A stretch of DNA of 64,000 nucleotides from Gemmatimonadota bacterium (lineage in GTDB: Bacteria; Gemmatimonadota; Gemmatimonadetes; Gemmatimonadales; GWC2-71-9). Of the stretch, positions 8,525-14,385 are shown piece by piece. Every line of letters starts with the position of its first letter. Position 1 is the stretch's first letter. The position numbers and the translations under genes are program-made. Below the pieces are notes generated by a model. It did not search any database. It saw nothing but the letters and a program-made list of their open reading frames with translations, and was not told where the DNA came from. Location: contig VGVQ01000001.1 of the NCBI GenBank assembly GCA_016874005.1, positions 496,001-560,000 of the forward strand, in the 5' to 3' direction.

Positions 8525-9760
8525 ATGAAGGGAACCCACAGAATCACGAAGGTCGTCCGTGGAAGACGGGTGAAGGTGGGGTCGTACATCATCCAGATTA
8601 CGACACGGTTCCCATCGTGTAAGCGACTTCAACTCACCACGTCAGTCTATCCAGAGACGAAGAACGCTCCAACCGTCATTCAGGAAATGAAGTTGATGTT
8701 GAAGGAGATGAACCGAAACGGAGACGTTGAACGGTTCCTTCAACTCAAGAACGGGAAACTCAAACTCATTGACGTCTATCACGCCTATAAGGCTGGTCGT
8801 GAGCACCTTCTTTACGGGAATGAAGGTAAGAATCTTCTCGCAGAGTTGATGGCATATACAGAAAGTGGCATCCACGCTGAGTACACGACAAAGACGACGA
8901 AGGGGTGGTTGGCAACATTTAAGAAATACGGATTGATCTCAGACAATCATGTCGTTGCGGACTTGCCGAAGGTTGTTCAAGGTGCCTACAACTACTACAA
9001 GCCGCGCAAGAAACACGACATGTTCAATCTTTCCCGAGTGTATTTCCTCGGGTTCTTGAAGAATCATTGCCAGCATTCGTCTCAGTCGCCGTTGTACCAA
9101 GCAATTCAGCGAATTGAACGACTTAAGGTCACAGTTCGCAAGCAGCATAATCCGCTCTCAACACCGCACGATCTTTTCGCGCTGATTCAGCAAGTTCTTG
9201 ACGATAAGAACGTCCCTCAAGAACGCCGCGAGTGGTATGCGGAAGCCATATTGATGATGACGCTCCATCCGTTTAGACCAACGGAGTTTTTCCAGTTGAA
9301 GTGGGAGCGTGATACTCTCACGGGACATCTTCGCATCAAAGGCACAAAGACAATTCAATCAAATCGGGTTGTCCCTTCTCTCGTCTATCCGCAGCACTAT
9401 CGCGAATCCCGTTTAAATGGTTTTCGCCTCGCGGAACCTCGCCTGAACAAGATTCTTAGAAAACTGAAGTCACCCGTTCGCAGTAGGGACTTCAGGCGGA
9501 CCTATTCTATTTGGGCAGAGAAGGCTGGCATTGAAAGAAGTCATCTTCTCTCTTACATGGGTCACGTCGGACGATCTCAGACGGACCTGTATCAGCGACG
9601 AGCGCTGACTCGGGATGAACTTGATACCGATCTCGTCAAGTTCCGAACGTTCATTGAGAATGAACTTAAGAAGGCTCCCGCAGTGAAGCAGTCGCATTTT
9701 GCACCCACGTCGGAGAAGGCAATCAAGACGTTCCTTCAATCCATTGAAGCTGATTCCTAG
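8525..9760 (+). CDS. Tyrosine recombinase (island integrase)
   Basis: 411 aa. The catalytic C-terminal domain shows Arg I (R251, LHPFRPTEFFQLKW), a beta-hairpin Lys (K275, IKGTKT), the second box RDFRRTY (R324; the usual His of HxLR is Arg321), H347 in YMGHVG and the nucleophile Y356 (TDLYQRR). The N-terminal half should hold the arm- and core-binding domains. Codon use is AT-rich, unlike the flanks. It starts about 90 bp from attL, the usual place for an integrase. The His-to-Arg change in box II is tolerated in some members of the superfamily, so activity is likely. Confidence 0.88.
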   Translation: MKGTHRITKVVRGRRVKVGSYIIQITTRFPSCKRLQLTTSVYPETKNAPTVIQEMKLMLKEMNRNGDVERFLQLKNGKLKLIDVYHAYKAGREHLLYGNEGKNLLAELMAYTESGIHAEYTTKTTKGWLATFKKYGLISDNHVVADLPKVVQGAYNYYKPRKKHDMFNLSRVYFLGFLKNHCQHSSQSPLYQAIQRIERLKVTVRKQHNPLSTPHDLFALIQQVLDDKNVPQERREWYAEAILMMTLHPFRPTEFFQLKWERDTLTGHLRIKGTKTIQSNRVVPSLVYPQHYRESRLNGFRLAEPRLNKILRKLKSPVRSRDFRRTYSIWAEKAGIERSHLLSYMGHVGRSQTDLYQRRALTRDELDTDLVKFRTFIENELKKAPAVKQSHFAPTSEKAIKTFLQSIEADS

Positions 9761-10199: not shown

Positions 10200-10874
10200 A
10201 TGGACCAGGTTCGAAAGTGTGTGTCGTACTTAAGAGTCTCCACCACCCGTCAGGGGGAGTCGGGACTGGGGATAGAAGCCCAGCGGAACTCGGTGGAGGG
10301 GTTCTTGAGGGGAGATAGCTGGAAGATTGTTGGAGAGTATGTAGAGGTCGAAAGCGGGAAGAACAACCATCGACCTGAACTTCAGAAGGCAATTACAACC
10401 TGTCGCATCCATAACGCGACTCTTGTCGTTGCTCGACTCGACCGACTAGCAAGAAACGCACACTTCCTCCTCGGTCTGAAGGAAGCGGGCATTGATATCC
10501 TCTGTGTGGATATGCCCTCAGCCAACGCATTGACCATCGGTATTATGGCGATGGTAGCGCAAGAGGAAGCACGTCTCATCTCTGCACGAACCAAGGCGGC
10601 GCTACAGATGGCGAAGCAACGAGGGGTCAAGCTTGGCTCCCCGCGTCCAATGACTCAAATGACCCAGCAGCTTGGGGTGGTCAGAAGTGGTCATGTTCGA
10701 AGAGCGAAGGCACAGCGGTGGATGAGCGATGTCCGACCCACCGTTGAGCAAGCGATGAACACCTGTAAATCACTTAGAAGCACCGCACGAGCTCTCTCGG
10801 AGGCTGGGATACCTGCTCGTCGGGGTGGTGTATGGACAGCCACTCAAGTCAGCAGGGTCCTGAAAGGCTTTTGA
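10200..10874 (+). CDS. Serine recombinase of the resolvase/invertase type
   Basis: 224 aa. The N-terminal catalytic domain has the nucleophile serine in YLRVSTTRQ (S14), and the conserved RLDRLAR (about residues 79-85) and QEEARLISARTKAAL helix E region. A C-terminal HTH-like segment (about 180-220, ARALSEAGIPARRGGVWTAT) resembles the Tn3/Hin-type DNA-binding domain. A strong ribosome site (GGAGGGGG) immediately precedes the ATG. Such enzymes resolve dimers or invert segments. As a partner of the tyrosine integrase it may act on repeats upstream at 9761-10199. Confidence 0.9.
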   Translation: MDQVRKCVSYLRVSTTRQGESGLGIEAQRNSVEGFLRGDSWKIVGEYVEVESGKNNHRPELQKAITTCRIHNATLVVARLDRLARNAHFLLGLKEAGIDILCVDMPSANALTIGIMAMVAQEEARLISARTKAALQMAKQRGVKLGSPRPMTQMTQQLGVVRSGHVRRAKAQRWMSDVRPTVEQAMNTCKSLRSTARALSEAGIPARRGGVWTATQVSRVLKGF

Positions 10875-11643: not shown

Positions 11644-11883
11644 ATGACAACTACGCAAATGAACAATACCGTATACATTGAACAAGACCTCGTGAACGTC
11701 TTCACCATCGCAGACCACTTCAATGTCCACTATAGAACCGCACAACGATGGACCCGAAACAAGTGGATACCCCACTACAGAATCGGAAAGTCGGTTCGGT
11801 ATAGTCTGAAGGAAGTAATGGACGCGACCGCATCACCACGCCAAGTAACAAGAGCAATAGCAAGTGTTGCCGAACGAAACTAA
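11644..11883 (+). CDS. Excisionase-like helix-turn-helix protein
   Basis: 79 aa with a MerR/excisionase-type winged HTH (HTH_17-like): FTIADHFNVHYRTAQRWTR followed by the wing IPHYRIGKSVRYSLKEVM. Such proteins act as recombination directionality factors (Xis) or small regulators. A clear AGAAGGAG ribosome site precedes the ATG. Location in an island with a tyrosine recombinase favours the Xis role, which is inferred. It overlaps the next gene by 20 bp. Confidence 0.8.
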   Translation: MTTTQMNNTVYIEQDLVNVFTIADHFNVHYRTAQRWTRNKWIPHYRIGKSVRYSLKEVMDATASPRQVTRAIASVAERN

Positions 11884-12229: not shown

Positions 12230-12258
12230 TTGACAATTCGCAAATACGAAGCAATAGT
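12230..12258 (+). promoter_or_regulatory. Sigma70-type promoter for a small RNA
   Basis: Consensus TTGACA (12230-12235), a 17-bp spacer and AATAGT (12253-12258, 4 of 6 matches to TATAAT). Transcription would begin about 12264, directly before a series of hairpins ending in an intrinsic terminator, with no start codon or ribosome site between them. Confidence 0.6.
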
Positions 12259-12263
12259 AAGGG

Positions 12264-12369
12264 CGCGTAGCGATTTCCCGACTTGACGGGCTACGCACCT
12301 CCACGTGGAGGAACCAACCGTCTAAGTCGAAGGCGATAAGCCTCCGACGTAAGGGTCGGGGGCTTTTTG
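12264..12369 (+). ncRNA. Candidate structured small RNA of the island
   Basis: About 105 nt between a near-consensus promoter and a terminator. Predicted by eye: hairpin 1 pairs GCGTAG (12265-12270) with CTACGC (12291-12296) and CCCG with CGGG inside it, loop ACTTGA. Hairpin 2 is the perfect palindrome CCTCCACGTGGAGG (12298-12311). Hairpin 3 is the terminator stem. AAGTCG (12324-12329) can pair with CGACTT (12279-12284) in hairpin 1, a possible pseudoknot. No known RNA family is recognised and no open frame fits. Confidence 0.55.
12339..12369 (+). terminator. Intrinsic terminator of the small RNA
   Basis: Stem AGCCTCCGAC (12339-12348) pairs with GTCGGGGGCT (12355-12364), 10 bp including one G-U, loop GTAAGG, followed by a T-rich run. 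Confidence 0.85.
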
Positions 12370-12553
12370 TTACTCGGTCACCTCCGTCTCGGTGACCACC
12401 ATGCAGAAGACGGCGAGAGTATCGGCTCCCAGACCCGTCTACCAATCCGTCGCTCCCCTCACCTCTGAGGATGACGGTGGTCCAGCCGACCAGTCGACAA
12501 CGACTGGAGCCATGGGCGAGTGAGACGGCACGTCTATCGCAAGGAGCGTAGGT

Positions 12554-13021
12554 ATGAGCCGCTGGCACAAACCAGACCCAATCGACCCGAACTTTCCAGA
12601 GGACGGTCTAGACGTACCTCGGATTTCGGAACGAGAACATCAGAGGAGAATGTATCTCCGATATCTCACAGATTTGGAATCGGTTTCAAAGAACGTACTC
12701 CGTACACTTGGCATCAGCACCGACAATCTTGAGCAGTACATTTGGAAACCCTACGAAGGGATGGGGCTATTCAGTAGGCTTCTCCATGCTTACGAGCGGC
12801 GTACAATGCCCAAGGGATATCTGCGTCCTATCGACAACCCTGACTGTGCTCAATATGAACTTCCCCCACACGTGAGAGAGAAACTCTTCGAAGAAGTCAC
12901 CCAGCGGGATATCCGCAATGGAACTCCACTTACACCCATGCAGGAAGAGTGGTTGAAGTCGCGGAATCCACAGCCTGAAGGGGAAGTGGATACGAACACG
13001 GCGTCGGAGGGCGGCTTATGA
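12554..13021 (+). CDS. Unknown protein of the island
   Basis: 155 aa. AAGGAGCG lies 6 bp before the ATG, a good ribosome site. The sequence is hydrophilic and mixed helical (REHQRRMYLRYLTDLESVSK; EKLFEEVTQRDIRNG), without membrane segments or metal motifs. I do not recognise a family. It overlaps the next gene by 4 nt (ATGA), so the two are probably translated together. Confidence 0.6.
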   Translation: MSRWHKPDPIDPNFPEDGLDVPRISEREHQRRMYLRYLTDLESVSKNVLRTLGISTDNLEQYIWKPYEGMGLFSRLLHAYERRTMPKGYLRPIDNPDCAQYELPPHVREKLFEEVTQRDIRNGTPLTPMQEEWLKSRNPQPEGEVDTNTASEGGL

Positions 13022-13350
13022 GCACCCACGACGACGAATGGTTCTATTGTATCGGCGGAGAGCAATCGTGGCAACGAATCCGCCACTTTCAAGACGGAAG
13101 TGAACCCGCTAAGGAATGGCAATGTTCTAACTGTGGGAACTGGTATCCAGAATTCGGTAGCTGTGTGGGAAGAACACAGTCGATAAGAAAGGGCGTCTGG
13201 TCCCAGCCACAGTGCTCCATCTGCTATCCCCCACCTTCGGGACTGCTGGGCGCATGCATCATTGGCTTCAACCACAGCAACAACCCTTGGAAAAGGTGGG
13301 CTGATCGACAAAACGGGAACAATCCACCGAAAGTCAAGGAAGGTGAGTAA
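13018..13350 (+). CDS. Unknown zinc-ribbon-like protein of the island
   Basis: 110 aa with two CxxC pairs, QCSNCGNW (about residues 36-39) and QCSICYP (about 65-68), spaced as in a zinc ribbon. The remainder is aromatic-rich (EWFYCIGGEQSWQR). It overlaps both neighbours by 4 nt and 1 nt, so three genes form a coupled string. Function unknown; nucleic-acid or protein binding through the zinc knuckle is a guess. Confidence 0.6.
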   Translation: MSTHDDEWFYCIGGEQSWQRIRHFQDGSEPAKEWQCSNCGNWYPEFGSCVGRTQSIRKGVWSQPQCSICYPPPSGLLGACIIGFNHSNNPWKRWADRQNGNNPPKVKEGE

Positions 13351-13766
13351 TGGCCTCCAGCGACGCCGGAAGTTCACTGTACAAAGGAGAACGCTTCACC
13401 AAGGCTGGACGCCTCCTTATCACGAGCCGCCAATTGATGGCCCTCAACGCGTTACTAGATACGCCACACGGTGAGGTTGGCTCTTTGGCAGAATGGTTTC
13501 GGTTGGTACAGAGATATGAGGAGTATCTTCACCCCGACTCAGTATGGCGGCTTCCTATCAGTTGGGCTAGAACAAAGTCGCGAGGAAGGCGAATTGGTGC
13601 GAGAATCATATCGAGACCCCATCACGACATTCGCAACAAACGTCATGGGCACAGTGCATGTTTTAGAGGCAGCAAGGCAAACAAAATGCACGAGGGCAAT
13701 GGTAATCGTCACCTCAGACAAGTGTTACGAAAACAGAGAATGGGTATGGGGATACCGCGAAACTGA
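13350..13766 (+). pseudogene. Unknown island gene with its 3' part replaced by rfbG sequence
   Basis: The first about 70 codons (SSLYKGERFTKAGRLLITSR, LAEWFRLVQRYEEYLHPDS) look like a genuine small protein, coupled to the gene before it. From about 13,590 the DNA belongs to a CDP-glucose 4,6-dehydratase gene read in a different frame, so the rest of the frame is nonsense. The original C-terminus is lost at a recombination junction. Family not recognised. Confidence 0.5.
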
Positions 13767-14385
13767 AGCGCTGGGGGGCTACGATCCGTACAGCAGCAGC
13801 AAGGGATGCTCGGAATTGGTAACCAGTGCGTATCGAAGATCGTTCCTGCTTCAGGCGGATATACCGGTTGCAACGGCGCGCGCTGGCAATGTGATCGGCG
13901 GAGGGGATTGGTCTGAAGACCGTCTCATCCCCGATATGATAAGAAGCTTCATAAAGGGGAAAACAGGAGCTATCCGTTATCCAGAGTCAACGCGTCCCTG
14001 GCAGCACGTCCTCGAGCCGCTCGCAGGGTATCTTCTGTTGGCAACCAAACTATTTGCCGAAGGTCGCGAATATGCAGATGCATGGAATTTTGGACCCGAG
14101 CAAAATGATGTGAAGCAGGTGAGGTGGATGGCAAATGAACTTGTCGCTTTGTGGGGCGAGGGTGTGAATTGGAAAAATGTTAATGACAACAGCTCCCACG
14201 AGGCAAAACTGTTGAGCCTTGATATTTCAAAGGCAAAAAACCTGCTCAATTGGAAACCAAGGTGGACCTCCGCGACCGCTCTAAACAAAACGGTGGAATG
14301 GTACCGAAGCTGGCAGGCAAAGGATGACATGCGAAGCATAACGTTACATCAGATTGCCGAGTACGAATCAAGCCAAACAGAATAG
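13594..14385 (+). pseudogene. rfbG: CDP-glucose 4,6-dehydratase, N-terminally truncated
   Basis: Sequence from LVRESYRDPITTFATNVMGT to the end matches the C-terminal about three quarters of RfbG, a short-chain dehydrogenase making CDP-4-keto-6-deoxyglucose. The catalytic Tyr-Lys (YDPYSSSKGCSE) and RAGNVIGGGDWSEDRL are present. The NAD-binding GxxGxxG and about 90 N-terminal residues are missing, replaced by unrelated island DNA. A start at ATG 13471 would give a 304-aa chimera that could not bind NAD normally. It directly precedes rfbH, its usual partner. Confidence 0.85.

Follow-up and report, generated by a model that had tools for sequence, protein, structure and literature searches.

A candidate SAM-II/SAM-V-type riboswitch ahead of an S-box-like element in the leader of accessory genes in a Gemmatimonadota island

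The window analyzed here is a stretch of 64,000 nucleotides from a Gemmatimonadota bacterium (assembly GCA_016874005.1, contig VGVQ01000001.1, positions 496,001-560,000) that contains an island, probably a mobile one. In this island lie genes for an integrase (8525-9760), for a serine recombinase (10200-10874) and for an excisionase-like protein (11644-11883); five genomes of the same genus lack the integrase. Downstream of these genes, on the forward strand, a 5' leader precedes three close or overlapping genes (12554-13021, 13018-13350 and 13350-13766), which are presumed to form a regulated operon (12554-13766) and for which Pfam, NCBIfam and PHROGs gave no match. At the island's end, ahead of an rfbH-like gene, stands a sugar-nucleotide dehydratase/epimerase-like gene (13471-14385), which is missing the N-terminal portion of its Pfam profile and may have been cut by the island.

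The leader begins with a sigma-70-type promoter (12230-12258), in which TTGACA (12230-12235) and AATAGT (12253-12258) are separated by a 17-nt spacer. The RNA that follows, on the same strand, contains a 7-bp helix P1 (12265-12296; 12265-12271 with 12290-12296), the segment L1 with the sequence GATTTCC (12272-12278), and an 11-bp pseudoknot helix P2 (12279-12329) formed by 12279-12289 (CGACTTGACGG) and 12318-12329 (CCGTC-T-AAGTCG), with U12323 bulged. A hairpin, P3 (CCTCC-ACGT-GGAGG, 12298-12311, -8.1 kcal/mol), coincides with the 14-bp palindrome CCTCCACGTGGAGG. An antiterminator hairpin (GTCGAAGGC/GCCTCCGAC, 12326-12348) is predicted at -11.2 kcal/mol with 8 of 9 pairs, and it overlaps an intrinsic terminator (12339-12368) whose 10-bp stem (12339-12364) and T run reach -19.3 kcal/mol. 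The folding z-score of the 105-nt RNA stretch is -3.7. A first-pass annotation, made from the sequence, had described the promoter, the palindrome, a bulged stem and a strong T-tailed terminator, and each of these is present. It had also proposed a structured RNA of about 105 nt with its own promoter and terminator; this holds, but the unit is only the first half of the leader, which extends past 12369 across another structured element as far as the ATG at 12554.

The annotation had recognized no known RNA family, in agreement with an Rfam scan of the window at gathering cut-offs, which assigned none to 12230-12369. A permissive scan of the RNA (E up to 10) returned no SAM-II or SAM-V match, weak SAM-IV and anti-hemB matches appeared in the Rfam scans, and a search for tRNA or tmRNA gave none. 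Within its own genome (a 3.9-Mb draft) the RNA is single-copy, and it is absent from five same-genus genomes. Of the 288 genomes in the order, 20 gave blastn matches. When 84,980 species were scanned with a pattern strict enough that distant relatives outside Gemmatimonadota could escape it, 16 loci were returned, all from Gemmatimonadota, Gemmatimonadetes, Gemmatimonas or relatives except one labeled Candidatus Kuenenia, which is taken as a mislabeled bin. With a covariance model (R1) built from 21 sequences (alignment A1), matches were obtained in 67 of the 288 genomes of the order and in 60 of 395 genomes sampled across the phylum, with two additional families of the class represented. Altogether, 77 covariance-model matches were aligned (A2), mostly one per genome and all in Gemmatimonadota; one of them (L168) is a false positive and was dropped, and another (L047) is degenerate. 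The plasmid collection yielded one insignificant 25-nt match and the viral contigs none, and a literature search, with subscription journals outside its scope, found no link of Gemmatimonas or Gemmatimonadetes with a SAM riboswitch. The family is apparently an undescribed relative of SAM-II and SAM-V, so far seen in Gemmatimonadota only.

The alignments bear out conserved stems, with compensatory changes in both P1 and P2. In P1, compensatory double changes occur at all 8 alignment pairs and 96.1% of cells are paired. P2 had been left out of the structure of the covariance model, yet across the 77 sequences 99.5% of P2 cells are paired, 4 of the 11 pairs are changed on both sides, and the covariation exceeds that of all 500 shuffles and all slid controls. 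For example, GACGG/CCGUC is replaced by GAUGG/CCAUC, GGUGG/CCACC, GUUGG/CCAAC or GAAGG/CCUUC. A pseudoknot had been suggested earlier between 12279-12284 and 12324-12329; it is real and covarying, and that version was too short, the helix actually having 11 bp (12279-12289 with 12318-12329). Every credible member has one bulged U in the P2 3' strand, with C before it and AA after it, and by inspection most homologues carry a hairpin of variable sequence (P3) between P1 and that strand. Together, P1 and P2 make up an H-type pseudoknot. A local hairpin inside P1 (CCCG-N6-CGGG), favored by the minimum free energy fold, was rejected: its sequence is constant and hence uninformative, and it is incompatible with the covarying P2. 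At the degenerate locus L047 (6597-6673), P1 is intact, the P2 3' strand is altered (CCGTCTGTCTTG) and no leader gene was found; this copy looks like a decaying riboswitch.

This architecture can be compared with that of known SAM aptamers, on the understanding that the mapping onto the SAM-II/SAM-V core rests on sequence and topology. In the SAM-V structure, the SAM adenine is held by pairing to U47, the third strand consists of U8-U10, U20:A48.U9 lines the sulfonium, and A50 with A18 holds the methionine end; P3 sits between P1 and P2, and SAM-II binds SAM almost identically without P3 (PMC6061858). The new RNA resembles SAM-V (RF01826) in its H-type pseudoknot, in a P3 between P1 and the P2 3' strand, and in a UUU third strand. 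In L1, this UUU is constant in all credible homologues, with GAUUU the commonest context and GGUUU, AGUUU or GUUUU in some, and the segment would be equivalent to the SAM-II/SAM-V GAUUU, its role being taken from the SAM-V structure (PMC6061858). Likewise, CUAA stands opposite UUG in P2 in all homologues except the false positive and the broken L047, and by analogy its U would pair with the SAM adenine. The new RNA differs from SAM-V at the methionine end, where the third A of UAAA (A47 in SAM-II, A50 in SAM-V) is G in every homologue that keeps CUAA and the A18-equivalent partner is C or U, an A.A contact thus being replaced by a G-Y pair. P2 is also longer, with 5 bp on the P1 side; a terminator is used, whereas SAM-V masks the ribosome site; and SAM-V belongs to marine alphaproteobacteria and RF01826 does not match the Gemmatimonadota RNA. 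With SAM-II (RF00521; RF01726 for the long-loop form), it shares the binding core, a transcription-terminator platform and a position upstream of met genes, and the two occur in tandem in Gemmatimonadota. SAM-II differs in having no P3 (PMC6061858) and in its consensus (GCUAAA versus CUAAG in the new RNA), and neither RF00521 nor RF01726 detects the new RNA.

The genes downstream of the homologues often belong to SAM or methionine metabolism. Eighteen of the 77 matches lie directly before metK and 29 before metY/metX, nearly all of the latter with a canonical SAM-II riboswitch next (six loci above the Rfam cut-off, 26 by motif). In view of these 47 met-gene leaders, often in tandem with SAM-II, and of the SAM-II/SAM-V core, the RNA is best read as a cis-acting riboswitch, and the earlier idea of an independent RNA that controls copy state, immunity or integration is not upheld. 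The window copy precedes genes of other kinds: it is among about 25 matches before unknown or cut-off genes, most of which follow an S-box (SAM-I)-type second element. In its own genome, judging from gene names read from translations, two methionine-synthase-like (homocysteine methyltransferase) genes are preceded by SAM-II and a threonine-synthase-like gene by a weak SAM-II match; the new RNA is absent upstream of metK there. At one locus (L147, 2501-2570), unlike all others, the aptamer stands before a peroxiredoxin-like gene, as read from its translation.

The same gene associations bear on the identity of the ligand. An aptamer of this architecture made selective for SAH, or for some other derivative of SAM, by the altered methionine-end contact would be in keeping with the invariant UAAG in place of UAAA and the Y in place of A18, and close aptamer variants with a switched ligand do exist, such as the spermidine-binding SAM-I variants (PMC10853860). 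Nevertheless, a ligand other than SAM is considered unlikely: metK, metX and metY are repressed by SAM via riboswitches in other bacteria, the tandem partners are SAM-II and S-box elements, and SAH is disfavored by the retention of the U pair that detects the charge on the sulfonium.

Regarding the expression platform, 67 of the 77 matches have their best -35/-10 pair equally far from the RNA start, about 30-36 nt ahead of P1, so that transcription is expected to begin at P1 or close to it. In nearly all homologues the core is followed by GC-rich hairpins with T-rich tails. The sequence GUCG-Y-GG downstream of P2 complements CCGCGAC in the terminator's 5' arm, where CGAC is conserved in 67 of 74 homologues. 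The antiterminator complementarity averages 17.8, versus 15.6 +- 0.4 for shuffled sequence; downstream regions swapped between loci score equally, so that it is the shared CGAC motif, and not a locus-specific antiterminator, that beats the shuffles. The predicted fold of the window transcript ending at 12350 contains the antiterminator. Since P2, antiterminator and terminator are mutually exclusive, the layout is that of a ligand-induced terminator. At one locus (L163), metK starts a few nt from the aptamer, which is probably a translational version.

In the proposed mechanism, abundant SAM would sit in the P2 triplex, with U12323 pairing with its adenine and the UUU strand and U:A pairs lining its sulfonium. 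The SAM-bound P2 would take up AAGUCG (12324-12329) and thereby preclude the antiterminator, allowing the terminator to fold and transcription to stop after about 105 nt. At low SAM levels, GUCGAAGGC (12326-12334) would instead pair with the 5' arm of the terminator, and RNA polymerase would read into the S-box-like element. The terminated RNA of about 105 nt would still accumulate as a riboswitch product and could have a secondary trans role. That the RNA is primarily a free-standing, trans-acting small RNA of the island appears very improbable. Its own promoter and strong terminator would suit such a role, and the terminated SAM-II leader of S. meliloti is the sRNA RZ (PMC9373788); against this, the RNA keeps its place ahead of a metK, metY or metX gene read in the same direction in different families, a pure sRNA would have no use for the antiterminator pairing, and the aptamer core is the most conserved part.

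The second element (12376-12556, forward strand) begins with a hairpin, P0 (12376-12397), whose arms covary, followed by an S-box (SAM-I)-like element (12399-12515) closed by P1 (CCATG/CATGG, 12399-12403 with 12511-12515) in the consensus fold of alignment A3. The ribosome binding site AAGGAG and the ATG start (12554) of the first leader gene lie at 12541-12556. This region matches 15 other loci (A3), with L049, L138 and L153 among the loci that carry the S-box variant; in the consensus fold 13 pairs are changed on both sides, and an A-AAGG motif is conserved. Against the RF00162 cut-off of 44.4 bits, L153 scores above (48.5), and L067 (37.7), L138 (36.1) and another member (27.9) fall below; the window element itself gave a weak SAM-IV match (15.7 bits) in the Rfam scan. 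The element shares its overall fold and core with SAM-I/S-box riboswitches, one homologue passing the Rfam cut-off and most members remaining below it, whereas its P3 begins GCC/GGC rather than GGC/GCC and P0 is an addition. The P0 loop (12384-12390, CCGTCTC) is paired to the 3' tail (12522-12528, GAGACGG), in the stretch just before the ribosome site. The loop-tail complementarity is 19.75, compared with 15.4 +- 0.9 after swapping of loops and tails, and none of 2000 swaps scored as high; CCGUCUC/GAGACGG in the window is replaced by UGCGCCUCG/CGAGGCGCG in L040, CUGUCCC/GGGACAG in L041 and CCGUUCC/GGAACGG in L048. This pairing is a new feature for an S-box-like element, and its position beside the ribosome site suggests that the element acts as a translational switch, by which translation would probably be checked too.

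Such an arrangement has a known parallel in a terminating SAM-II ahead of a translational SAM-V (PMC9481103). The tandems described there, SAM-II/SAM-V and SAM-II/SAM-I-IV, similarly place two SAM riboswitches in series with a terminating one first. In the present case, the first aptamer is instead a new variant, and the second is SAM-II at met genes or, at orphan genes, an S-box element with an added 5' hairpin and loop-tail pseudoknot.

Taken together, these data make it very likely that 12230-12369 comprises the promoter, aptamer and terminator of a SAM-sensing transcriptional OFF switch of the SAM-II/SAM-V type, placed ahead of an S-box-like element that probably acts at translation. Points against a SAM riboswitch are that neither SAM-II nor SAM-V is matched in Rfam, that G replaces the methionine-end A, and that the window genes are not methionine genes. 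Alternatively, the family would be a riboswitch but the window copy a decayed or passenger one that regulates nothing useful in the island, as the orphan downstream genes, the same-genus genomes without the RNA and the broken P2 of L047 might indicate. Such decay is nonetheless distinctly unlikely, given that no P1 or P2 pair is lost in the window, that the bulged U, the promoter, the terminator, the antiterminator and the second element's loop-tail pairing are all retained there, and that two of its gene products resemble products of other leader genes. If the SAM-sensing OFF switch is real, the SAM-II/SAM-V aptamers would gain a branch specific to one phylum, and the natural change at the methionine-end contact would make SAM recognition directly testable. 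The loci also show new tandem combinations of distinct SAM aptamers.

The accessory genes themselves are partly shared among loci rather than random neighbors, as two observations indicate. The window genes at 13018 and 13350 encode products similar to those of leader genes in L039 and L043 (27%, 3e-4; 29%, 1e-5), and products from four other loci (L045, 584-1252; L148, 2703-3494; L138, 2770-3456; L054, 5729-6229) form one family whose genes recur after the riboswitch. This family has no NCBIfam or PHROGs match, nor a Pfam match for L045 and L054, and no homologues of the L045 leader gene were found on plasmids or phages. It is conceivable, if rather doubtful, that accessory genes have recruited the conserved two-riboswitch cassette so as to be switched on by SAM shortage, for instance against phages or elements that destroy or consume SAM. 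Tying SAM sensing to families of uncharacterized accessory genes would offer a first handle on their function. A defense-gene reading was rejected, PADLOC having given only insignificant Cas5a matches for the window genes. An assignment of the SNF2 protein of L048 as ZorD/DpdE was also discarded, the helicase domain being alike and the score far under the NCBIfam equivalog cut-offs. The gene for this SNF2 helicase with a SWIM zinc finger lies directly behind the tandem riboswitch in L048 (7510-9339), and such a gene is the second one in L045.
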